Positions 51,115 through 62,522 of a stretch of DNA of 64,000 nucleotides are shown here, one piece after another. A program made the translations under genes and the position numbers. The stretch is from positions 1-64,000 of the forward strand of contig CAJFMX010000001.1 in the NCBI GenBank assembly GCA_904393115.1, given 5' to 3'. Under the pieces are notes generated by a model, which ran no database searches, had not been told where the DNA came from, and saw only the letters and a list, made by a program, of their open reading frames with translations. This DNA comes from an uncultured Clostridia bacterium (GTDB taxonomy: Bacteria > Bacillota > Clostridia > Christensenellales > UBA1750). Every line of letters starts with the position of its first letter. The first letter of the stretch is position 1.

Positions 51115-51157
51115 CAGGCGGACGAAGGGATTTCCCCCCTTTTGTCCGCCTGTTTTT
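51115..51157 (+). terminator. Terminator after rarA
   Basis: CAGGCGGAC (51115-51123) pairs with GTCCGCCTG (51144-51152), with AAGGG/CCCTT inside, followed by five Ts. Confidence 0.87.
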
Positions 51158-51274: not shown

Positions 51275-52900
51275 GTGAGAAAACAAGCGCGGTTGGTCCG
51301 CGGCGTTGCGGCGCTTCTGCTGCTCGCGGCGGCGCTTTCGCTTTTGTCGGCGTGCAGCCTTTCGGACCTTGCAGCGGGCGGCCAGAGCGGGGCGGACGCG
51401 GTGCTGGGCAGCGGAACCCGGGTGCTGCGCATCCTCTCGGGCTCGGAGAACGCCGAGCTGGAGCCGATCCTGGAGGAATACGCCCGGGACGCGGGCGTGC
51501 GCATTGAGATGACGTATCAAGGCTCGCTGGACATCATGCGCGCCCTGGGCCAGGAGGACCTCGCCTACGACGCGGTCTGGCCGGCGAGCTCCCTCTGGCT
51601 GAACGTGGGCGATACCGGCCACCGCGTCAAGCACGCGGAGTCCATCTCCATCACGCCCGTGGTCTTCGGCATCCGGAAGTCCCTGGCGGAGTCCCTGGGC
51701 TTTGTCGGGCGCGAGGTCTCCGTCCAGGACCTGCTGGACGCCATCCGCGCGGGGTCCCTGCGCTTCTGCATGACCAGCGCCACGCAGTCCAACTCCGGCG
51801 CCAGCGCCTACATCGGCTTCCTGTACGCGTTGCTCGGCAACCCCGACGTCATCACCGAGGAGGACCTGCAGAGCGAGACGCTGAAAACCCAGGTGCGCGA
51901 GCTCTTCTCGGGCGTGGACCGCTCCTCCGGCAGCAGCGACTGGCTCAAGGACATGTTCCTCGCCGGCGACTACGACGCCATGGTCAACTACGAGTGCCTC
52001 ATCATCCAGGCCAACGAGGAGCTGACCGCCCGCGGGGAGGAGCCCCTCTACGTCGTCTACCCCTACGACGGCCTGTCCATCGCGGATTCGCCCCTGGGCT
52101 ATGTGGACGCCGGGGACGAGGCGAAGGAGGAGCTCTTCCTCGACCTGCAGGCCTACCTGCTCTCGGAGGAGACGCAGAGCGCGATCCAGCGCACGGGCCG
52201 GCGCTCGAGCTACACGGGCGTGCGCGAAGAGAACCGGGACGTATTCCCCGAGGCGTGGGGCCTGCAGCCGGACCGCGTGCTCTCGCCCATCCGGATGCCG
52301 GCCGCGGACGTGCTCTTCGCGTGCCTGAACCTCTACCAGACGGAGCTGCGCAAGCCCTCGCTGAGCGTCTACTGCCTGGACTATTCCGGCAGCATGAGCG
52401 GGGAGGGGAACGAACAGCTCGTCTCCGCCATGGAGCAGATCCTCGTGCAGGAGAATGCCGCCGCGAACTTCCTGCAGGCCTCCCAGGACGAGGTCAACAT
52501 CCTCATCCCCTTTAACGGCGAGGTCATCGCCACGTACTCCGCCGTGGGCAACGGGCAAGAGCTGGAGGACCTCTACCGCGTGGTCCGCGGCCAGGAGGTC
52601 GGCGGCGGCACGGACATGTACGCCGCCGCGGCCGAGGGCCTGCGCCTGCTGCAGGGCTACGACCTGACGCAGTACACCCCGGCCCTGATCCTGCTCACGG
52701 ACGGCCAGTCCGGCGGGAGCTTTTCGGAGTTCGCCCAGGCGTATGCGGAGCTCGGGCAGGAGGTTCCCGTGTTCTCCATCATGTTCGGGAACGCGGACGA
52801 GGAGCAGCTGCAGGAGCTTGCGCAGTACACCAACGCCCGCGTATTCGACGGGCGGGAGGACCTGACGGCCGCCTTCCGCAGCGTAAAGGGGTACAACTGA
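51275..52900 (+). CDS. Lipoprotein fusing a solute-binding domain to a von Willebrand A domain
   Basis: 541 residues. The GTG start follows AAAGGGGG. A signal peptide with lipobox LLSAC anchors it outside. Residues ~45-350 look like a type 2 extracellular solute-binding protein (RVLRILSGSENAELEPILEE, TSATQSNSGASAYIGFLYALLG, VYPYDGLSIADSPLG). Residues ~360-541 are a von Willebrand A domain with a complete MIDAS: DYSGS (Asp369, Ser371, Ser373), the Thr in GGGTDMYAA, and LLTDGQSGG. It would bind a ligand or a metal-dependent partner at the surface. It starts a four-gene operon with overlapping ends. Confidence 0.85.
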   Translation: MRKQARLVRGVAALLLLAAALSLLSACSLSDLAAGGQSGADAVLGSGTRVLRILSGSENAELEPILEEYARDAGVRIEMTYQGSLDIMRALGQEDLAYDAVWPASSLWLNVGDTGHRVKHAESISITPVVFGIRKSLAESLGFVGREVSVQDLLDAIRAGSLRFCMTSATQSNSGASAYIGFLYALLGNPDVITEEDLQSETLKTQVRELFSGVDRSSGSSDWLKDMFLAGDYDAMVNYECLIIQANEELTARGEEPLYVVYPYDGLSIADSPLGYVDAGDEAKEELFLDLQAYLLSEETQSAIQRTGRRSSYTGVREENRDVFPEAWGLQPDRVLSPIRMPAADVLFACLNLYQTELRKPSLSVYCLDYSGSMSGEGNEQLVSAMEQILVQENAAANFLQASQDEVNILIPFNGEVIATYSAVGNGQELEDLYRVVRGQEVGGGTDMYAAAAEGLRLLQGYDLTQYTPALILLTDGQSGGSFSEFAQAYAELGQEVPVFSIMFGNADEEQLQELAQYTNARVFDGREDLTAAFRSVKGYN

Positions 52901-53511
52901 TGCGGGAAGTTTCGCGGATGCTGGCCGCGGCGCTGGCGGCCTGCGCGGCGTTCCTGGCGCTGTTTTTCGCCCTGCGGTGGCACATCGCCGTGTGCGCGCT
53001 GCTGGCGGTGGGCGTGTACTTTGGCCTCTACTTCCTGCTCAAGCCCGTGCGCAGGATCGCGGGCATCGCGGTGGAGGACCTGCCCGGCGGCGAGGAGATG
53101 CAGGCCCTGCTCGAGGAGGCGCGGCAGGACCTGGACCGGATCCGGCAGGCGGAGGCGCGGATCGACGACCCTGCCGTCCGCCGGGAGGCGCAGGCCCTGC
53201 GCGAGACCGGGGAGCGCATCCTCGCCTACCTGCACAAGAACCCGGAAAAGATCCGCAGCGCGCACCAATTCCTCACCTATACCCTGGACACGGCGGGCAA
53301 GCTCCTGGCGCGCTACGTCGAGTTCCGCGCCACCGGGCTTGCGACCCCGGAGGTCCAGGAGATCCTCGAGCGCACGGCAAAGTCCCTGCCCGTGCTCCAC
53401 GCGGCCTTTGAGCGGCAGTTCACGCGCCTGATGCAGGGCGAGCTGCTGGACGTGGAGGCGGACATCGAGCTGCTGCGGAAGATGCTTGCGATGGAGGGAG
53501 AACAGCCATGA
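52900..53511 (+). CDS. XpaC-like membrane protein
   Basis: 203 residues. Two N-terminal membrane segments (ALAACAAFLALFFAL and AVCALLAVGVYFGLYFLL) precede a helical cytoplasmic domain of about 150 residues, the layout of the XpaC ('5-bromo-4-chloroindolyl phosphate hydrolysis') family. That name comes from an activity assay and its true role is unknown. XpaC and TelA proteins are often neighbours in Firmicutes (family knowledge). Its ATG overlaps the stop of the vWA gene, and its stop overlaps the next start. Confidence 0.78.
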   Translation: MREVSRMLAAALAACAAFLALFFALRWHIAVCALLAVGVYFGLYFLLKPVRRIAGIAVEDLPGGEEMQALLEEARQDLDRIRQAEARIDDPAVRREAQALRETGERILAYLHKNPEKIRSAHQFLTYTLDTAGKLLARYVEFRATGLATPEVQEILERTAKSLPVLHAAFERQFTRLMQGELLDVEADIELLRKMLAMEGEQP

Positions 53512-54563
53512 AGACAAAGTGGATCGGCCTTGCGATCCTGGCGGTCGTCATCGTCGCCGCGGCAGGGTACGCGGTCTTTTCCGCAAACGCCCAGGTTTTG
53601 GAGCTGAACGGGTACCTCGGGGGAGAAAAGATCGGCCTGCTCGAGGACGCGGAGGTCCAGGAGATCTTCCGCAGCCGGTATCACCTCTCCCTGGACTACG
53701 CCCGCGCCGGGTCGCTGGAGATGATCACCGCCGACCAAACGGGCATGAACTATCTCTTCCCCTCCAACCAGACCGCCCTGGAGCTCTATGAACAGGTCCA
53801 GGGCACGCCCTATCGCAGCGAGATCGTCCTGAACACCCCGATTGTGCTCTATACGCGCGCGCAGGTGGCCGAGGCCCTGGTCGGCGCGGGCATCGCCTCC
53901 GCTGCGGACGGCGTCTACACCGTGGACATGGCGGCGCTCGTGGCCTGCATCGAGCAGGGGACCTCCTGGGCGGAGATCGGCCTGCCGGAGCTCTACGGCG
54001 ACGTGGCCGTGGGCACGACCGACCCCACCAAGTCCAACTCCGGAAACATGTTTGCCGGGCTCCTGGCCAACACGCTCTGCGGGGGCGTTGCGGACGAGAA
54101 CAATGTCGAGGCGATCCTGCCGCGGCTGCAGGCCATCTTCCAGCGGCTGGGGTACATGGAGAACTCCTCCTCGGACCTGTTTGACCAGTTCCTCAAGACC
54201 GGCATGGGCGCAAAGCCCCTGATCGCCGGCTACGAGAGCCAGCTTCTGGAGTTCGCCGTGCAGAACCCCGACACCTGGGCGCAGATCCGGGACGACATCG
54301 TCCTGCTCTACCCGACACCCACGGTCTGGTCCTCGCACGTCTACATCGCGCTGGACGAGGCGGGCGCCACGGCCATCGACGCGCTGCTGGACGAGGACGT
54401 GCAGCGCCTGGCCTGGGAAAAGCACGGCTTCCGCACGGGTTTGTACGACGCGCCCGGGGACGTCGGCCAGTTCGGCGTGCCCGGCATCGCCGAGGAGATC
54501 ACCCAGGTCGCGCCCATGCCGGACGTGGACACCATGGACCGAATCATCGCAGCCCTTTCCTGA
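53508..54563 (+). CDS. Second extracellular solute-binding protein (membrane-anchored)
   Basis: 351 residues. It begins with a hydrophobic signal or anchor (IGLAILAVVIVAAAGYAVF) without a lipobox cysteine. The rest resembles a type 2 solute-binding protein with the conserved VGTTDPTKSNSGNMFAGLLAN, close in pattern to TSATQSNSG in the first gene, and ends with APMPDVDTMDRIIAAL. No permease or ATPase gene accompanies it, so it may sense or present a ligand rather than feed a transporter (inference). Confidence 0.78.
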   Translation: MKTKWIGLAILAVVIVAAAGYAVFSANAQVLELNGYLGGEKIGLLEDAEVQEIFRSRYHLSLDYARAGSLEMITADQTGMNYLFPSNQTALELYEQVQGTPYRSEIVLNTPIVLYTRAQVAEALVGAGIASAADGVYTVDMAALVACIEQGTSWAEIGLPELYGDVAVGTTDPTKSNSGNMFAGLLANTLCGGVADENNVEAILPRLQAIFQRLGYMENSSSDLFDQFLKTGMGAKPLIAGYESQLLEFAVQNPDTWAQIRDDIVLLYPTPTVWSSHVYIALDEAGATAIDALLDEDVQRLAWEKHGFRTGLYDAPGDVGQFGVPGIAEEITQVAPMPDVDTMDRIIAALS

Positions 54564-54601
54564 CGGCGAAGCGGCCGCGCACGAGCAAAGGAGACGAACA
54601 C

Positions 54602-55753
54602 ATGGCAAGCGAAATCACACTGGATGCCTTGACCAAGCGCAAGGCCGAGGCGCAGAGCCCGCAGGTGGAGACCGCGCCCACCCCCGCGCAAACCGACGCC
54701 GTGCGCCGCGCGGTGGAGGCGCTCACCCCCGAGGAGCGCGCCAAGGCGGAGGAGATCAAGAACGGCATCGACCTTATGGACTCGCAGACGGCGATCCTCT
54801 ACGGCGTCGGCGCGCAGCGCAACCTCGCGGAGTTTTCGGACAACATCCTGGCCAACGTCCGCAACAAGGACACGGGCTACGTCGGCGACCTGATGGGCGA
54901 GCTGGTGGAAAAGGTCCGGGACGTGGGCGTGGACGAGGCGGAGGGCGGCGTTCTCGACAAGCTGCCCTTCCTGCGCAGCGCGGCGCGCGCCGTGCGCAGG
55001 CTCCTTGCGCGCTACGAGAAGATCGAGGTGCAGATCGACCGCATCCAGCGGGACCTGGAGGAGGCCCGCATGCAGATGCTCAAGGACATCGCCATGTTCG
55101 ACGGCCTGTACGAAAAGAACCTGGAGTACTTCCGCGGGCTGCAGGTCTACATCGTCGCGGGGGAGGAGAAGTTGCGCGAGACCCGGGAGGAGACGCTGCC
55201 GCGCCTGCGCGTCGAGGCGCAGGCCAAGGGCGACCCCATGAGCGCCCAGGTCGTGCGCGACTTCGAGGACACGGTCGACCGCTTTGAGAAGAAGCTGCAC
55301 GACCTCAAGCTCAGCAAGGCCATCGCCATCCAGACCGCCCCGCAGATCCGCCTCATCCAGAACAACGACAAGCTCCTCGTCGACAAGATCCAGACCGCGA
55401 TCCTCTCCACCATTCCGCTGTGGAAGGGGCAGATCGTCATCGCCCTGGGCCTGGCCCGCCAGCAGTCCGCCCTGCAGATGCAGCGCAGCGTGACCGACAC
55501 CACGAACGAGCTCCTGCAGAGAAACGCCGAGCTGCTCAAGCAGAACAGCCTCGACGTGGCCCGCGAGTCCGAGCGCGGCATCGTGGACCTGGAGACGCTC
55601 AAGAAGGTCAACGACGACCTCATCTCCACGATCGAGGAGACCATCCAGATCCAGCGCGAGGGCCGCGCCGCCCGCCAGAGCGCCGAGGCCGAGCTCGCCG
55701 GCATCGAGCAGAAGCTGAAGGACGCGCTCCTGACCGCCGCGCAGGCCGATTGA
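54602..55753 (+). CDS. TelA/KlaA-family 'toxic anion resistance' protein
   Basis: 383 residues, almost entirely helical and soluble. Family hallmarks are LMDSQTAILYGVGAQRNLAEFSD, IQRDLEEARMQMLKDIAMFD, and KLSKAIAIQTAPQIRLIQN-type DLKLSKAIAIQTAPQIR. TelA proteins were named for tellurite resistance but occur in many stress clusters with XpaC and Ter proteins; the molecular function is unknown. It is the last gene of the operon and is followed by a strong terminator. Confidence 0.88.
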   Translation: MASEITLDALTKRKAEAQSPQVETAPTPAQTDAVRRAVEALTPEERAKAEEIKNGIDLMDSQTAILYGVGAQRNLAEFSDNILANVRNKDTGYVGDLMGELVEKVRDVGVDEAEGGVLDKLPFLRSAARAVRRLLARYEKIEVQIDRIQRDLEEARMQMLKDIAMFDGLYEKNLEYFRGLQVYIVAGEEKLRETREETLPRLRVEAQAKGDPMSAQVVRDFEDTVDRFEKKLHDLKLSKAIAIQTAPQIRLIQNNDKLLVDKIQTAILSTIPLWKGQIVIALGLARQQSALQMQRSVTDTTNELLQRNAELLKQNSLDVARESERGIVDLETLKKVNDDLISTIEETIQIQREGRAARQSAEAELAGIEQKLKDALLTAAQAD

Positions 55754-55777
55754 GTTTCGCCCCCGTTTCCGCAAAAA

Positions 55778-55820
55778 ACGCCCCCGGAGCCGCCAACGCG
55801 CGCGGCCCGGGGGCGTTTTT
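55778..55820 (+). terminator. Terminator of the vWA-XpaC-SBP-TelA operon
   Basis: ACGCCCCCGG (55778-55787) pairs with CCGGGGGCGT (55807-55816), followed by Ts. Confidence 0.87.
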
Positions 55821-55852
55821 GCGCGCCTTGCCCCCCGGGAGGGGCGCCCGGC

Positions 55853-55881
55853 TTGTAAAGCGAGGCGAAATATGCTATGCT
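55853..55881 (+). promoter_or_regulatory. Promoter of the DeoR-family regulator
   Basis: TTGTAA (55853-55858), 17-base spacer, TATGCT (55876-55881). Confidence 0.6.
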
Positions 55882-55922
55882 TAGGGGGAACACAGAGCGA
55901 ATTTCAACGGAGGGGGAGGGCA

Positions 55923-56681
55923 ATGCTCTTCAACGAACGGGCGGAGATCATCCTGCAGCAGGTGCAGCTGCAGTCCACGGTCCGGGTGCAGGAGCTGAGC
56001 GAGCTGCTGCAAGTCTCGCAGGACACGGTCCGGCGCGACCTGCGCGCCATGGAAAAGCGCGGGCTGCTCAAGTGCGTTCGGGGCGGGGCCTGCCTGCCGG
56101 AATCCCTTTCCGCCTTCTCCAACTTCAAGGGCCGCGAGATCATCCACTCCGACCTCAAGCGCGCGGCCAGCCGCAAGGCGATCGGCTACATCCGCGAGGG
56201 GGACATCGTCGCGCTCAACTCCGGCACGACCAACACCATCCTCGCCCAGGAGATCGCCCAGCGCTGCCACAACATCACCGTCGTCTCCAACAACCTGGCC
56301 GCGGTGCGCATGCTCCTGCAGGCGCCGGCCATCCGCGTCATCCTCATCGGCGGCAACGTCGACCCCACCGAGCAATCCACCTACGGCCCCATGTGCGAGC
56401 AGGGATTCGTGCAGTACTATCCGGACGTGACCTTTCTCTCCCTGAACGCGGTCAATTACAAGGACGGGTTCACGGACTTCCGCCTCTCGGAGGTGGGGAT
56501 CATTCGCGTGCTCTCCGAGCACTCCCGCCGGGTGATCGCGGTGATGGATTCCAGCAAGCTCGGCAAGCGCTCCAAGTGCAAGGTGCTGGACCTGGACGCC
56601 GTGGAGCGGCTGCTCATGGACGACCAGGTCGCCGACGGCGTGCGGGAAAAGTACCGGGAAAAGGGCATCCTCATCGAGTGA
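55923..56681 (+). CDS. DeoR/GlpR-family transcriptional regulator
   Basis: 252 residues. The N-terminal winged helix (ILQQVQLQSTVRVQELSELL, then VSQDTVRRDLRAMEKRG) is followed by the effector domain of the DeoR sensor family with IVALNSGTTNTILAQE, ITVVSNN and RVILIGGNV, which binds a phosphorylated ligand. Lying just upstream of the phosphonate genes, it is the obvious candidate regulator of that operon, in place of the GntR-type PhnF. The start at 55923 follows GGAGGGGGAGGG. Confidence 0.9.
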   Translation: MLFNERAEIILQQVQLQSTVRVQELSELLQVSQDTVRRDLRAMEKRGLLKCVRGGACLPESLSAFSNFKGREIIHSDLKRAASRKAIGYIREGDIVALNSGTTNTILAQEIAQRCHNITVVSNNLAAVRMLLQAPAIRVILIGGNVDPTEQSTYGPMCEQGFVQYYPDVTFLSLNAVNYKDGFTDFRLSEVGIIRVLSEHSRRVIAVMDSSKLGKRSKCKVLDLDAVERLLMDDQVADGVREKYREKGILIE

Positions 56682-56736
56682 ATCGCGCGCAGCGGCGTTG
56701 AATGAAATCGAGAGAATCTATACAGTTCCTAGACAC

Positions 56737-56816
56737 GGCGGGTCCGGCGGAGATTTTTCTCCGCCGCGCCCGCCCTTGCTTTTCCTGCCAAAACCCCGGA
56801 ATTCCGGGGTTTTTTT
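56737..56816 (+). terminator. Terminator region after the DeoR-type gene
   Basis: A GC-rich stem GGCGGG-GGCGGAGA pairs with TCTCCGCC-CCCGCC (56737-56774). It is followed by a second, perfectly symmetric stem around AATT, with arms AAACCCCGG (56791-56799) and CCGGGGTTT, ending in a T-run to 56816. Confidence 0.85.
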
Positions 56817-56877
56817 GCTGCTCAAAAGGGAAAAGATGCGTTAACGGCGAGTTTACTCGGCCTTGAGCCTTTCTTGC

Positions 56878-56913
56878 TTGAATATGCGGTATATTCGGGG
56901 TAAAATCATACCG
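56878..56913 (+). promoter_or_regulatory. Phosphonate operon promoter with overlapping palindromes
   Basis: TTGAAT (56878-56883), 17-base spacer, TAAAAT (56901-56906). Inside the spacer lies the inverted repeat GAATATgcggtATATTC (56880-56896), and a second one, CGGTAT (56887-56892)/ATACCG (56908-56913), straddles the -10. This is a good place for repressor binding, perhaps by the DeoR-type protein. Confidence 0.65.
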
Positions 56914-56957
56914 AAATCAGCAAAAAGACGCAAAGGTCTGCAAGAGGAGGCAACCGC

Positions 56958-57752
56958 ATGACGGGGAGAATCGAGGCCGTGATCTTCGACTGGGCAGGAA
57001 CGACCGTGGACTACGGCTGTTTTGCGCCGGTGGAGGCGTTCCGGCAGGCGTTCCGGGAGGTGGGGATCGACCCGACCGCAGAGGAGCTGCGCGGGCCGAT
57101 GGGCCTGTCCAAGCGCCAGCACGTGCAGAAGATGTTCGAGATGCCGCGCATCGCCGCGTGCTTTGAGAAGGCGCAGGGCCGCCCCTGGCAGAACGAGGAC
57201 GCCGACGGCGTCTACCGCCGCAGCGAGGCGCTGATCCTTCGCCTGCTGCCGGACTTTGCGCAGCCTCTGCCCCACGTGCGGGAGGCGGTCCAAGCGCTGC
57301 GCGCGCAGGGCGTCAAGATCGGCTCGACGACGGGCTACAACGACGAGATGATGCGCGTGGTGGTTCCGGCGGCCGAGGCCGCGGGCTACCGCCCGGACTG
57401 CTGGTTCAGCTCCGATTCCACGGGCGGAATCGGCCGGCCCTATCCCTACATGGTCTTCCGCGCGCTGGAGAAGCTGGGCGTTTCCTCGGTGCGCGCGGCG
57501 GTGAAGGTGGGGGATACCGCAGCGGACATCCGCGAGGGACGGAACGCGGGCCTTGTGACCGTGGGCCTGATCGAGGGGAGCTCGCTGATGGGCCTTTCCC
57601 AGGCGGAGTACGAAGCCCTGCCGGAGGACGTGCGCCAGAAGGAGATCAGCCGCGTGCGCCGGGCCTACGCGGACTGCGGCGCAGATCACGTCCTGCTCAA
57701 CCTCAGCAGCCTGCCTGCGCTGCTGGACGAACTCGGATATACCGCGCGCTAG
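56958..57752 (+). CDS. phnX: Phosphonoacetaldehyde hydrolase (phosphonatase)
   Basis: 264 residues. It splits phosphonoacetaldehyde to acetaldehyde and phosphate. HAD motif I DWAGTTVDYG gives the nucleophile Asp11; Lys52 in MGLSKRQHV matches the Schiff-base lysine of characterised enzymes; RPYPYMVF and VGDTAADIREG complete the active site. It is the first structural gene of the phosphonate operon. The partner transaminase PhnW is not seen in the window. AGGAGG precedes the ATG. Confidence 0.95.
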   Translation: MTGRIEAVIFDWAGTTVDYGCFAPVEAFRQAFREVGIDPTAEELRGPMGLSKRQHVQKMFEMPRIAACFEKAQGRPWQNEDADGVYRRSEALILRLLPDFAQPLPHVREAVQALRAQGVKIGSTTGYNDEMMRVVVPAAEAAGYRPDCWFSSDSTGGIGRPYPYMVFRALEKLGVSSVRAAVKVGDTAADIREGRNAGLVTVGLIEGSSLMGLSQAEYEALPEDVRQKEISRVRRAYADCGADHVLLNLSSLPALLDELGYTAR

Positions 57753-57813
57753 CGCTGTATATAAAGCCCCAAGGACAAAAGACGACATCGGATTTTGGAA
57801 AGGAGCCGAAAAC

Positions 57814-58950
57814 ATGAACCTCAAGAAGATTCTCTCGCTCTCCCTGAGCGCCGTCCTGCTCGTGGCCCTGCTTGCCGGCTGCTCCGCGCCCGCGGAAGCC
57901 CCGGCCGCCACCGACGCGCCCGCGGCAACGGACGAGGCGCAGAGCGCGGCGCCCGAGGCGACCGAGCCCGCCGCGACCGAGCCTGCCGCGACCGAGGAGA
58001 CCACCGGGAACTATGCGGATACCATCACCATCGTCTGGTACCCCAACGAGTCCGCCGAGGACTACGAGGTCGCCCGCGAGGAGTACGCCCGCCTGATCGA
58101 GCAGGCCACCGGCAAGAAGGTCGAGCAGAAGCTGACCACCGACTACGCCATCGCCATCGAGTCCCTGGCCAACGGCACCGCGCAGATCAGCTTCATGGGC
58201 GCGCAGGGCTACATCGAGGCCAAGAACGCCAATGACGCGGTTCTGCCGCTGTTCGTCAACTCCGGCGCCTCCGGCACCCTGGACGACGCGCTCTACTACA
58301 GCTTCCTGGCCGTCAAGAAGGGCAACGAGGGCGAGTACGCCTCCGGCGACACCTACTCCATCGACAACATCCAGGGCAAGCGCATCTCCTTTGTGTCCAA
58401 CAGCTCCACCTCCGGCTTCAAGGTTCCGACCAGCTCCATCATCTCGCACTTCAGCGATCTGGGCCTGACCGAGGACGACCTGATCGAGGGCGGGGACGAC
58501 ATGTTCTTCTCCCAGGTGCTCTTCGGCGGCTCGCACCAGGGCTCGGCCTTCAACCTCATGAGCGACCGCTCGGACGTCTCCGCCTTCTGCGACACGGAAA
58601 TCGCGCCCTATGCGGACTGCGTGGAGGGCGAGGCGAACACCGTGGGCTCCACCTACGCCATCAAGGCGGATGCCAGCGCGCCCTTTGACACCGTCACCGG
58701 CGAGGAGTTCGTCCTCATCCAGGTGACCCCGGTTCTCAACGGCCCCTTCGCCTACAACTCCGACGCGCTCGACCCCGCGGACGTCAAGGCCATCCAGGAT
58801 CTGTTCACCTCGGACGAGGTCGCGGACAACGAGCTGATCTTTGTGCCGGAGGATTCCGACGGCGTGGGCATGTTCGAGAAGACCGACAGCGAGCGCTTTG
58901 TGCTGGTCGAGGACGCCTGGTTCGACCCGATCCGCAACCTGAGCGAATAA
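57814..58950 (+). CDS. phnD: Phosphate/phosphonate ABC transporter substrate-binding lipoprotein
   Basis: 378 residues. Signal peptide with lipobox LLAGC (Cys23), then a ~40-residue Ala/Thr/Pro/Glu linker, then a PhnD-type binding domain from about residue 70 with ITIVWYPNESAEDYEVAREE, ISFMGAQGYIEAK and SFVSNSSTSGFKVPTSSII, whose Ser/Thr-rich loop typically contacts the phosphonate. AAAGGAG lies upstream. It delivers ligand to the two PhnE permeases encoded downstream. Confidence 0.93.
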   Translation: MNLKKILSLSLSAVLLVALLAGCSAPAEAPAATDAPAATDEAQSAAPEATEPAATEPAATEETTGNYADTITIVWYPNESAEDYEVAREEYARLIEQATGKKVEQKLTTDYAIAIESLANGTAQISFMGAQGYIEAKNANDAVLPLFVNSGASGTLDDALYYSFLAVKKGNEGEYASGDTYSIDNIQGKRISFVSNSSTSGFKVPTSSIISHFSDLGLTEDDLIEGGDDMFFSQVLFGGSHQGSAFNLMSDRSDVSAFCDTEIAPYADCVEGEANTVGSTYAIKADASAPFDTVTGEEFVLIQVTPVLNGPFAYNSDALDPADVKAIQDLFTSDEVADNELIFVPEDSDGVGMFEKTDSERFVLVEDAWFDPIRNLSE

Positions 58951-58982
58951 GCACGAACCCATTCGAAGGAGACGATAGAGAA

Positions 58983-59759
58983 ATGGCGCTTCTTACCTTC
59001 CAGCACGTGAGCAAGACCTACGACAACGTCACCAAGGCGCTGCAGGATGTCTCGTTCTCGATCGAAGAAGGCGAGTTCGTGTCCATCATCGGCCCCTCCG
59101 GGGCCGGAAAATCGACACTGCTGCGATGTGTCAACCGCCTGGTGGACGCATCGCAGGGTGCGATTTTTTTTGACGGGCAGAACGTCACCACTGCGGACAA
59201 AAAGCAGCTGCGGGAAATCCGAATCAAGACCGCGATGATCTTCCAGCACTACAACCTCGTGGACCGCCTGAGCGTTGTGGAGAACGTGCTCCACGGCCGC
59301 CTGGGGCAGAAATCGACCCTCAGCGGCGTCGTCGGCCAGTACACGGAGGAGGAGAAGGCGGAGGCCTTCCGCATCCTTGCGGAGATGGGCCTTGCCGAGA
59401 CGGCCTACAAGCGCTGCGACGAGCTCTCCGGCGGGCAGAAACAGCGCGTGGGCATTGCGCGGGCGCTGATGCAGCACCCCAAGCTCATCCTCTGCGACGA
59501 GCCGATCGCCTCCCTGGACCCCAAGTCCTCCAAGGTCATCATGGACCACCTCAAGGCCATCAACCAGAACCAGAAGATCACCTGCCTGGTCAACCTGCAC
59601 CAGGTGGACGTCGCGATGAAGTACTCCGAGCGCATCATCGGCGTCACGGCCGGCCGCATCGTCTACGACGGCCCCACGGCGAACCTCACGCAGGACGTCA
59701 TCCACGAAATCTACCAGTCCAGTGAGCACGACCTGATCACCGACGTGCAGGGGGCGTAA
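58983..59759 (+). CDS. phnC: Phosphonate ABC transporter ATP-binding protein
   Basis: 258 residues. Walker A GPSGAGKS (37-44), Q-loop IFQHYNLVDRLSVVENVLHG, signature LSGGQKQRVGIARAL, Walker B LILCDEPIASLDP and the H-loop in LVNLHQVDVAMKY. The VNRLVDASQGAIFFDGQ and VLHGRLG segments are typical of PhnC. Confidence 0.95.
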   Translation: MALLTFQHVSKTYDNVTKALQDVSFSIEEGEFVSIIGPSGAGKSTLLRCVNRLVDASQGAIFFDGQNVTTADKKQLREIRIKTAMIFQHYNLVDRLSVVENVLHGRLGQKSTLSGVVGQYTEEEKAEAFRILAEMGLAETAYKRCDELSGGQKQRVGIARALMQHPKLILCDEPIASLDPKSSKVIMDHLKAINQNQKITCLVNLHQVDVAMKYSERIIGVTAGRIVYDGPTANLTQDVIHEIYQSSEHDLITDVQGA

Positions 59760-59764
59760 AGCAC

Positions 59765-60574
59765 ATGCAGATCACAAAGCAAACCAAGGCCAATCTGGAC
59801 ATCTTCCAGCGCAGGAAGATCACCTATACGCTCGTCTTCCTCGTGCTGATCGCGGTGTTTGCGGGCGCGTCCCTCGTCTCGGAGTTCAACCTCCTGGACG
59901 GGGTGGCCTCCTTCCCCGCGGCGATGCAGTGGATCATCTCCAACCTGATCCCGGACGCCGAGGCCATCGAGCGCATCCCCAAGATCCTCTCGGAGCTGAT
60001 GGAGACGGCGCTCGTCTCCGTGGCGGTGACGGTGGTCGCGGCGGTGCTGGCCTTCTTCTTCAGCCTTCTGGGCTCCAACATCACGCGCGTCAACCGGGTG
60101 GTCAAGCGCGTCGTGCGCATCGTGGCGGCGTTTTTCCGCAACGTGCCGGACGTGGTCTGGGCGATGCTGCTGATGTTCTCCTTTGGACAGAACATCCTGA
60201 CCGGGTTCTTCGCGCTGTTCTTCACGACCTTCGGCCTGCTCACGCGCGCCTTCATCGAGACCATCGACGAGGTCAGCTCCGGCTGCGTCGAGGCCCTGGA
60301 CGCCACGGGCGCCAACTTCCTGCAGAAGGTCTTCCAGGGAATCCTGCCCTCGTCCATGCCGGGCGTCATCACCTGGGTGCTCTACATGATCGAGACCAAC
60401 ATCCGCTCCTCGACGCTCATCGGCATCCTGACGGCAACGGGCATCGGCTATCTGTTCGACCTCTACTATAAGCGCCTGGACTTCGCCTCGGCAAGCCTTG
60501 TGGTGCTCTCCATCGTGGTGCTGGTCCTCGTCATCGAGACCGTCTCCAACAAGGTAAGGAAGGTGATCCTGTAA
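59765..60574 (+). CDS. phnE: Phosphonate ABC transporter permease, first copy
   Basis: 269 residues with about six membrane segments. The EAA-type coupling loop is the region SSGCVEALDATGANFLQKVFQGILPSS. It ends by sharing a base with the next start (TAATG). Starts five bases after phnC. Confidence 0.93.
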   Translation: MQITKQTKANLDIFQRRKITYTLVFLVLIAVFAGASLVSEFNLLDGVASFPAAMQWIISNLIPDAEAIERIPKILSELMETALVSVAVTVVAAVLAFFFSLLGSNITRVNRVVKRVVRIVAAFFRNVPDVVWAMLLMFSFGQNILTGFFALFFTTFGLLTRAFIETIDEVSSGCVEALDATGANFLQKVFQGILPSSMPGVITWVLYMIETNIRSSTLIGILTATGIGYLFDLYYKRLDFASASLVVLSIVVLVLVIETVSNKVRKVIL

Positions 60575-61464
60575 TGAACGAAACCGTAGCCATCCCCGCG
60601 GGCAAGCCCTCGGAACCCGGGCGCGGGGAGCGGGAGGCCGTCGAGCGGAACATCGTGCGGACCCACTCGGGCAAGATCAAGATCAAGGGCCGCAACCGGA
60701 GCCAGACGGCCATCACCGCCCTGTGCCTGGTTCTGCTGGGCATCACCGCCGTGGCCTTTGCCACCTTTGACACCGGCAGCATCGACTTTGGCCAGGCCGT
60801 GCTCGACACGCTGCACAACATCCGCACTGTCTTCCTCGAGCCGGAGCTCGTGCGCGACACGGTGGGCGGCGTGCTCTACCAGCTGCTTGTGACCTTCTGC
60901 CTGGGCATTCTCTCCACCATCATCGGCGCGGTGCTGGCCTTCTTCTGTTCGCTGCTGTGCGCGCGCAACATCGCTCATCCCGCGTGCGTGAACGCCGTAA
61001 AGAGCGTCGTGGCGGTCGTGCGCGCGGTGCCGACGGTCCTGTGGGTGCTGATCTTCGCCGTCTCGGCGGGGCTGGGCAGCGTCGCGGCGGTCGTGGGCCT
61101 GACCTTCCACAGCTTCGCGTACCTGACGAAGGCGTATGCCGAATCCATCGAGGAGATGGACCCCGGCGTCATCGAGGCCCTGCGCGCCAACGGCGCGAGC
61201 TACTGGCAGATCGTCTGTCAGGCGATCGTGCCCACGACCATCACCTCCATGATCGCCTGGACCTTCATGCGCTTTGAGATCAACTTTGCCAACGCCGTGG
61301 CCATGGGCGCGGCGGCCGGCGCGGGCGGCATCGGCTTCAACCTCTTCATGGCGGGCAGCTTCTACTTTGACCTGCACGAGATGGGGATGCTGACCTACAT
61401 CGTCGTCATCGCCGTGGTTCTGCTGGAGATGCTCTCCACCAAGATCAAGGCCAAGGTCCGCTAA
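60574..61464 (+). CDS. phnE: Phosphonate ABC transporter permease, second copy
   Basis: 296 residues with a longer N-terminal cytoplasmic extension (~45 residues, charged) than the first copy. The coupling loop is EMDPGVIEALRANGASYWQIVCQAIVP. Together with the first copy it probably makes a heterodimeric channel, as in other Firmicute phn operons with paired phnE genes. The N-terminal extension is shorter if a later start is used, but the first ATG overlaps the upstream stop. Confidence 0.93.
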   Translation: MNETVAIPAGKPSEPGRGEREAVERNIVRTHSGKIKIKGRNRSQTAITALCLVLLGITAVAFATFDTGSIDFGQAVLDTLHNIRTVFLEPELVRDTVGGVLYQLLVTFCLGILSTIIGAVLAFFCSLLCARNIAHPACVNAVKSVVAVVRAVPTVLWVLIFAVSAGLGSVAAVVGLTFHSFAYLTKAYAESIEEMDPGVIEALRANGASYWQIVCQAIVPTTITSMIAWTFMRFEINFANAVAMGAAAGAGGIGFNLFMAGSFYFDLHEMGMLTYIVVIAVVLLEMLSTKIKAKVR

Positions 61465-61524
61465 AAAAGGGGAGCGGCGCGCCGCGCCCCAGCGATGGAA
61501 ACCAACACAAAGCGAGGAAAACCT

Positions 61525-61950
61525 ATGGAAAAAAGACGCATTTCGAGGATTTTGGCCAGGGCCGACGGGGCGGCCGTCAAGCGCCTGGCCGACGAGATCA
61601 AAGCCGTGCAGTCGCCCGTCATCGTCAAGGCCCCGGAAAAGTCCCTGGCCATGATCCGGATGCGGGAGCCGGTCCAGGAGAGTCTGTTCTACCTGGGGGA
61701 AGTCATCGTCTGCGAAGCGATCGTGGACCTTGCGGGAAAAAAGGGCGTCGCGGTCCTGATGGGCGACGACTTTGACAAGGTGCTCGACATGGCGGTCATC
61801 GACGCGGCCTGCAACGCCGGCGTCTTCGCCCGCTACGACGAGCTGGAACGGCTCGAGCGCGAGCAGAAGATTCAACTCGAAAAGGAGCGCGCCATGTTCC
61901 TGAAGACCATGGTCAGCTTCCACTCCATGGATTCGGAGGTGGCCCCGTGA
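61525..61950 (+). CDS. phnG: C-P lyase subunit PhnG
   Basis: 141 residues. Part of the PhnGHIJ core that attaches and breaks the carbon-phosphorus bond. The family sequence FYLGEVIVCEAIVDLAGKKGVAVLMGDDFDKVLDMAVIDAAC is clear (only part given). The start at 61525 follows GAGG; an ATG at 61495 without good similarity is an alternative. Its stop overlaps the GTG of phnH. Confidence 0.9.
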   Translation: MEKRRISRILARADGAAVKRLADEIKAVQSPVIVKAPEKSLAMIRMREPVQESLFYLGEVIVCEAIVDLAGKKGVAVLMGDDFDKVLDMAVIDAACNAGVFARYDELERLEREQKIQLEKERAMFLKTMVSFHSMDSEVAP

Positions 61951-62522
61951 AGCAGCTGCACACATTCGACGAGGTTTTCGATTCCCAGAAGGTGTTCCGC
62001 AAGGCGCTGGAGGTCCTCTCCAACCCCGGAAGAACCCTCTCCATCGCCGGGCAGAGCGAGAAGCTCTACGGCCAGCAGCCGGGCCTGCTGGCCCTGGCCA
62101 TGACGCTGCTGGACGCCTCGGTGTCCTTCTGCGCGCCGGACGACGCGGAGCTGACCGAGCAGATTCTCCTGCACACGCACGCCGCGCCCGTGGACGCGCA
62201 GGAAGCGGACTTCCTCTTCTGCACGCGCGCGCAGAACCTGGGCGCCTGCATCGAGGCCGCCAAGTGCGGCACGCTCGCCGATCCCCACACGGGCGCGACG
62301 ATCCTCGTCCGCGTGCCGCAGGAGGAGAGCGTCCGCGTGCGGCTGAGCGGCCCGGGCGTGGACGGCGCGCTCGAAACCGAGGTGCCCCGCGACGTGCTCG
62401 CAGCCATTCGGACGCGGAACGCGCAGGCGTACGAGTATCCCCAGGGCGTGGACTTCTTCTTTCTCCTGCCCGGGGACGCGATCCTCGCCATCCCAAGACT
62501 TGTCAGAATGGAGGAAGTGTAA
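61947..62522 (+). CDS. phnH: C-P lyase subunit PhnH
   Basis: 191 residues from a GTG that overlaps the phnG stop. DEVFDSQKVFRKALEVLSNPG at the start and GVDFFFLLPGDAILAIPR near the end are PhnH signatures; the fold is related to PLP transferases but has no lysine role. It is a scaffold of the C-P lyase core complex. Confidence 0.92.
   Translation: MKQLHTFDEVFDSQKVFRKALEVLSNPGRTLSIAGQSEKLYGQQPGLLALAMTLLDASVSFCAPDDAELTEQILLHTHAAPVDAQEADFLFCTRAQNLGACIEAAKCGTLADPHTGATILVRVPQEESVRVRLSGPGVDGALETEVPRDVLAAIRTRNAQAYEYPQGVDFFFLLPGDAILAIPRLVRMEEV

Follow-up and report, generated by a model that had tools for sequence, protein, structure and literature searches.

Layout of the unit

We analysed a stretch of 64,000 nucleotides from an uncultured Clostridia bacterium (contig CAJFMX010000001.1, positions 1 to 64,000; hereafter the window), concentrating on four consecutive genes at 51275-55753, all on the plus strand. 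In order, these encode a solute-binding protein (SBP) fused to a von Willebrand A (VWA) domain, an XpaC family protein, another solute-binding protein (SBP2) and a TelA protein; we refer to the SBP-VWA, XpaC, SBP2 and TelA genes together as the unit. The original prediction had read them as a single operon, and all four genes were confirmed at these positions; plausible Shine-Dalgarno sites are present. The first three genes overlap as predicted, SBP-VWA and XpaC by 1 nucleotide (TGATG) and XpaC and SBP2 by 4 nucleotides (ATGA), and 38 nucleotides separate SBP2 from TelA. Two strong intrinsic terminators, both on the plus strand, enclose exactly these four genes: one at 51115..51152 (15-bp stem and T tract; RNA fold z -7.3) at the end of the upstream rarA/mgsA unit, and one at about 55770..55822 (G+C-rich hairpin and T tract; fold z -4.4) at the 3' end.

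Gene 1 (51275..52900, GTG start) encodes the 541-residue SBP-VWA lipoprotein, which matched SBP_bac_11 at 59.9 bits and VWA at 36.1 bits, both above the Pfam cut-off. Cys27 of its lipobox (51353..51355) is the predicted lipidation site and does not vary among 28 homologues, which span four phyla. The SBP domain (51416..52309), recognised by Pfam, alignment, profile and model, carries the cleft motifs GSE (residues 56-58), GS (83-84), SNSG (172-175) and YE (239-240). The VWA domain (52358..52897) ends in a conserved VKGYN and contains a complete metal ion-dependent adhesion site (MIDAS), as had been claimed: D369-x-S371-x-S373, T446 and D476 are invariant in 28/28 aligned homologues, and metal binding is predicted from these residues. 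The lipobox cysteine, the MIDAS and a C-terminal ending of the type [VI][KR][GA]Y[NQ] are kept in all of the phyla in which SBP-VWA was found.

Gene 2 (52900..53511) encodes a 203-residue protein that scored 88.6 bits with the XpaC profile (PF10112; cut-off 29.8); two N-terminal transmembrane (TM) segments, with hydrophobic peaks at residues 7-25 and 32-50, are followed by a helical, predicted cytoplasmic part. Gene 3 (53508..54563) encodes the 351-residue SBP2, in which a predicted N-terminal TM anchor (residues 2-28) precedes a type II SBP domain. Gene 4 (54602..55753) encodes a 383-residue TelA that matched PF05816 at 386.5 bits over profile positions 2-331 of 332; it has no TM peak and is predicted to be cytoplasmic.

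Two related binding proteins

SBP2 gave no sequence match in Pfam, NCBIfam or PDB. The original description of gene 3 as a solute-binding protein was nevertheless right, because the SBP2 profile matched the SBP domain of gene 1 (hhalign 99.4%, E 7e-22, 292 columns) and because AlphaFold2 gave a confident model (pLDDT 90.9) that starts with a TM helix and whose fold was placed by Foldseek nearest to sulfate- and molybdate-binding proteins. SBP2 is therefore predicted to be a type II SBP and a paralogue of the SBP domain of gene 1. The SBP-VWA model reached a pLDDT of 89.6 and its top Foldseek match was 6lkg, which we take to be HptA. Both SBP models (pLDDT about 90) have the two-lobe, SBP_bac_11-like type II fold, with Foldseek E values down to 3e-11 and 5e-11.

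The two proteins carry matching invariant motifs (G[GS]E, GS, SNSG and YE), which lie in loops that lead from a strand into a helix, the places at which proteins of this fold bind their ligands; the SNSG of SBP2 is at residues 176-179 (54033..54044). Since the same cleft motifs occur in both, the two SBPs probably recognise one small ligand, or two that are related, and the sequences suggest at least a shared ligand class. The fold and the Ser/Gly-rich cleft loops favour an anionic ligand, i.e. an oxyanion or a metal-anion complex, without fixing its identity. Invariant glutamates in the cleft loops (E40 and E243 of SBP2; E58 and E240 of SBP-VWA) argue against simple sulfate.

Conservation and co-inheritance of three genes

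An SBP2 profile scan of 84,980 genomes yielded 150 relatives, the best 80 of which were kept; together with the window and one relative from its order these gave 80 loci that were complete enough to score. SBP-VWA, XpaC and SBP2 stood in the same order and on the same strand in 80/80 of them, across many genera of gut Firmicutes, and the arrangement is therefore far beyond chance. The exact 1-nucleotide overlap between SBP-VWA and XpaC was retained in 47/80. Pairwise identities of the three proteins correlated with r = 0.96-0.97, and those with TelA with r = 0.81-0.85 (species phylogeny not corrected for).

As these loci had been found through SBP2, we ran the reverse test from SBP-VWA. Among the 101 genomes nearest to the window, full-length SBP-VWA occurred in exactly the 3 genomes that carry SBP2, and the SBP-VWA hits in 12 other genomes covered the VWA part only. 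Similarly, 6/6 plasmid records that hold this SBP-VWA (from 72,556 searched) also hold SBP2. The three-gene core thus showed neither of the patterns that the original prediction had set against itself, i.e. separate distribution of the genes or a permease that always pairs with them.

Two Streptomyces plasmids contained SBP2 with no SBP-VWA detected; around these SBP2 homologues (L088 7863-12179) no SBP-VWA or TelA was detected nearby. In one of these plasmids the genes 3' of SBP2 encode a protein with a hydrophobic segment at its N-terminus and a Castor/Pollux-type ion channel.

Absence of a transporter and of conserved neighbours

There is no permease or ATPase among the four genes, so that the unit itself is not an ABC importer, nor does it contain a histidine kinase or response regulator. 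The absence of a transporter, noted for the window in the original prediction, holds across the family: an ABC ATPase signature lay within 2.5 kb of the unit in only 2/80 loci. Among 138 proteins neighbouring 38 Firmicutes loci, no family recurred more than 3 times, no ABC permease was found among the 25 commonest families and no transporter family was recurrent. We rejected a conserved neighbour or hidden permease, as recurrent clusters in a fixed place came only from closely related Blautia-type loci and flanking ABC ATPases lay at varied distances.

In the window the neighbours are rarA, a DeoR-type regulator and then a phosphonate locus, with no TerC, TerD or TerB nearby. The region 3' of the unit (55872-62522) reads, from its open reading frames, as a phosphonate-type locus with the DeoR-type regulator (confirmed by Pfam), a PhnX-like hydrolase, a PhnD/C/E/E-like ABC transporter and PhnG/H-like genes. 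The SBP of this locus goes with its own PhnD/C/E/E-like transporter and lies outside the four-gene unit.

TelA as an apparent genome-level requirement

The original prediction had proposed a survey of genome neighbourhoods for all four genes. The invariant order described above bears it out for SBP-VWA, XpaC and SBP2, but TelA is less firmly attached than was claimed, directly following SBP2 in only 47/80 scored loci. Loci were counted as being without TelA (n=30) if at least 1.5 kb of downstream sequence was available and contained none. In 29/30 genomes whose unit has no TelA the gene was encoded elsewhere, nearly always beside a second, different XpaC, and the module therefore seems to need TelA but not a copy of its own. 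For comparison, TelA was found in 21/200 genomes of the phylum and in 100/200 genomes of the family of one carrier; in that family it was present in 9/9 SBP2-positive genomes (in one of which SBP2 is fragmented) versus 91/191 others. The genome of the window has a single TelA and a single XpaC, both inside the unit. The fixed core therefore comprises three genes, with a requirement for TelA at the level of the genome.

The unit does not contain the canonical XpaC-TelA pair of two adjacent genes, as SBP2 lies between them in 47/47 loci with TelA; canonical pairs occur separately from the module. In the genomes whose unit has no local TelA (G400-G429) the second XpaC, beside the canonical TelA, is often in a much longer frame (about 400-500 residues), and its match to PF10112 falls mostly in the C-terminal part of the profile; the module XpaC is compact (about 203 residues). 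One relative (G013, L003) combines a canonical pair with the four-gene unit, and the TelA of that unit has diverged strongly (169 vs 397 bits). Another (G495, C17:24445-24876) has a partial TelA match beside the module and an intact TelA elsewhere, and in a third (G499, C38) SBP2 is fragmented; the unit therefore appears to be decaying in some genomes.

Distribution and apparent transfer

Outside the Firmicutes a permuted set, SBP2-TelA-SBP-VWA-small membrane protein, was found in the Betaproteobacteria Sphaerotilus (L084) and Variovorax (L087) and in the actinomycete Nonomuraea (L085; Actinomycetota). This order is a circular permutation of that in Firmicutes, and here too neither a permease nor an ATPase goes with it. 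Deinococcus (L086), from a third further phylum, carries the permuted set with no local TelA. The small membrane protein is roughly 205-225 residues long with one or more N-terminal TM segments. In Variovorax sp. SRS16 (L087 15250-16662) a Wadjet JetA gene lies about 2.4 kb from the permuted unit, with a flotillin-like gene on the opposite side. Two further strains contain near-identical copies of the unit, and the JetA neighbourhood was not seen in Firmicutes.

Presence is patchy (3/101 relatives, 2/300 genomes in the phylum, 9/200 in one family), and the unit was not found in three congeners. In SBP2 the window and many distant gut Firmicutes share about 70-77% identity, whereas the near-universal TsaD of the same pairs is about 52-59% identical; the excess points to horizontal transfer for that group. 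For more distant carriers the signal is weak or nil (SBP2 about 58% vs TsaD 46-58%). A clean empty site was looked for in congeners and not found: genome G003 has the unit beside phn, but another gene lies upstream of it, and in G004 rarA is present and the unit is not.

Proposed function

We conclude that this is a real, conserved and apparently mobile binding-protein unit that lacks a transporter, for which a function can be proposed indirectly. As a fixed set inherited without a transporter, it probably senses something outside the cell rather than importing it. This agrees with the preference for sensing in the original prediction, which is upheld to the extent that neither unit nor family has a transporter; the passage of a signal through XpaC, its other part, is something we infer.

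The best explanation as a whole, which we hold with about even confidence, is a surface ligand-sensing unit without a transporter that is coupled through XpaC to TelA. It builds on observed gene content, gene order, co-inheritance, transporter absence and dependence on TelA at genome level, and on folds and membrane anchors predicted by computation. SBP-VWA, by its lipid anchor, and SBP2, by its single TM helix, would be held at the outside of the membrane and probably recognise one small ligand or two related ones, with an anion favoured. Binding would alter a metal-dependent contact made by the MIDAS of the VWA domain, probably inside a complex of SBP-VWA, SBP2 and XpaC, and the two-TM XpaC would relay the change to its cytoplasmic helices. 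TelA, whether encoded in the unit or supplied by the XpaC-TelA pair of the genome, would then be the cytoplasmic effector of a response to toxic anions or envelope stress. We infer the shared ligand and its class, the formation of a complex, the direction of the signal and TelA as its output; for the VWA contact, the XpaC relay and the TelA output the precedent of HptA offers some help by analogy.

Several points weigh against this explanation. TelA is not adjacent in 30/77 loci with enough downstream sequence, and one carrier (G427) has no detected TelA in its genome. XpaC is not known to have an output domain, nor TelA to have an activity. In the other phyla the small membrane protein resembles XpaC in place, length and N-terminal TM region, but its profile match to XpaC is low (hhalign 8-19%) and exceeds shuffled controls only when the TM part is included. 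The match of SBP-VWA to the HptA-like 6lkg is only slightly above those to ferric-binding and other SBPs, and the enrichment of invariant SBP2 residues at cleft-facing helix N-termini is a weak trend (p 0.06).

Other functions can be imagined for the same proteins. The SBPs might be scavengers that trap a toxic anion or metal outside the cell, with TelA and XpaC as an independent second layer of resistance and no signal between them. An oxyanion-type fold, the lack of a transporter with the unit and the literature that links TelA to tellurite tolerance would all fit, but two anchored, stoichiometric binders would be a poor sink, XpaC is inseparable from them (80/80 loci) although scavenging needs none, and the VWA domain and its MIDAS would have no role; we think scavenging rather unlikely. 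That the SBPs are half of an importer and hand their ligand to an ABC permease encoded elsewhere is very unlikely. Both are predicted to be genuine SBPs and orphan SBPs that share permeases are generally known, but neither the 80 loci nor the other phyla show a permease or ATPase alongside the set, a fused VWA domain and a fixed XpaC have no part in import, and the set is patchy (3/101, 9/200) and apparently transferred without a transporter.

The VWA domain could alternatively be an adhesin for a wall, mucin or neighbour-cell ligand, with XpaC-TelA modifying the membrane locally. Its nearest relatives are the secreted eukaryotic VWAs of inter-alpha-trypsin inhibitor, CLCA and alpha2-delta, and many carriers are gut bacteria; the conserved cleft motifs of both SBPs indicate a small ligand instead, and soil and water bacteria are also carriers while gut genomes are over-sampled, so we regard adhesion as unlikely. 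To a similar degree we doubt a role in defence against phage or bacteriocins, in which the SBPs would detect an envelope lesion or a released molecule. In its favour are the patchy, apparently mobile distribution, JetA near the Variovorax unit, the placing of TelA in Ter-type anti-phage or xenobiotic systems (PMC7824862) and the report that TelA-XpaC is induced by, or protects against, bacteriocins (PMC12791056). PADLOC, however, gave only weak coiled-coil hits for XpaC in the unit (E 0.005-0.01) and none for the members from other phyla. Membership of defence islands in Firmicutes was rejected because no PADLOC family recurred among the 138 flanking proteins of the 38 loci, and a phage-borne unit because tblastn of SBP2 and SBP-VWA gave zero matches in 50,697 phage records.

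If ligand sensing is correct, it would be a route for SBP signalling that bypasses transporters and histidine kinases alike. A bolder claim, which we think less likely than not, is that the unit represents a class of transmembrane signalling in bacteria that is undescribed so far and works without a kinase or a transporter, in which paired paralogous SBPs, one bearing a MIDAS VWA, gate a two-TM XpaC that controls TelA, the cassette having spread horizontally between phyla and plugged into the TelA stress machinery of its hosts. TelA and XpaC are widespread proteins, and this set puts two small-molecule receptors beside XpaC. It is thus a concrete handle on what the XpaC-TelA pathway may listen to, and a ligand for SBP2, whose binding domain is expected to be obtainable in soluble form, would make the question of TelA testable.

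Comparison with known systems

The component families are known, and the combination is undescribed in the literature we searched. In agreement with the original prediction, no function for the four-part arrangement was found in the open searchable literature, a coverage outside which the most relevant comparative Ter/TelA study falls.

Ter systems (TerB/C/D, TerF-vWA, TelA) share with the unit a TelA and a vWA protein, and have been proposed to form a xenobiotic and phage stress system with TelA at sub-membrane structures (PMC7824862). Unlike in Ter systems, there is no TerC or TerD nearby and the vWA of the unit is joined to an SBP in a single extracellular lipoprotein. The IncP kilA/klaABC operon (telA, telB) is, like the unit, a short operon with a TelA gene. 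We rejected RK2-type TelB/KlaC as a hidden SBP2, as there was no profile similarity (hhalign 0.1%). The KlaA proteins of IncP-type plasmids also gave matches to the TelA family (38.6 bits at L089 3695-4480; 30.1 bits at L092 4576-5346), and kilA/klaA and telA/klaB therefore look like paralogues. The molybdate- and sulfate-binding proteins ModA and Sbp (SBP_bac_11) have the fold and domain family of the unit SBPs, which differ in having no permease or ATPase, in being membrane-anchored or VWA-fused and in the invariant glutamates of their cleft loops.

XpaC (PF10112) and TelA (PF05816) are common to the unit and to the XpaC-TelA (YaaN/YceH) stress operons of Firmicutes. In B. subtilis the xpaC-yaaN operon belongs to the stress regulon of sigma-W (PMC3498285). 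In Listeria, loss of normal TelA in a mutant was reported to raise sensitivity to nisin and tellurite (PMC12791056). The known pair consists of two adjacent genes with no SBP or VWA, whereas here SBP2 intervenes, and in most cases where the unit has no TelA the genome holds both the module and a canonical pair. A functional precedent for the proposed sensing unit is HptA, which resembles an SBP and serves as the receptor for a kinase in the membrane (PMC8774646). The partners of HptA in the S. aureus HptASR system are a histidine kinase and a response regulator, which are absent from the unit, and HptA has no VWA domain; in both cases, however, an SBP-like receptor would serve a membrane partner rather than import.

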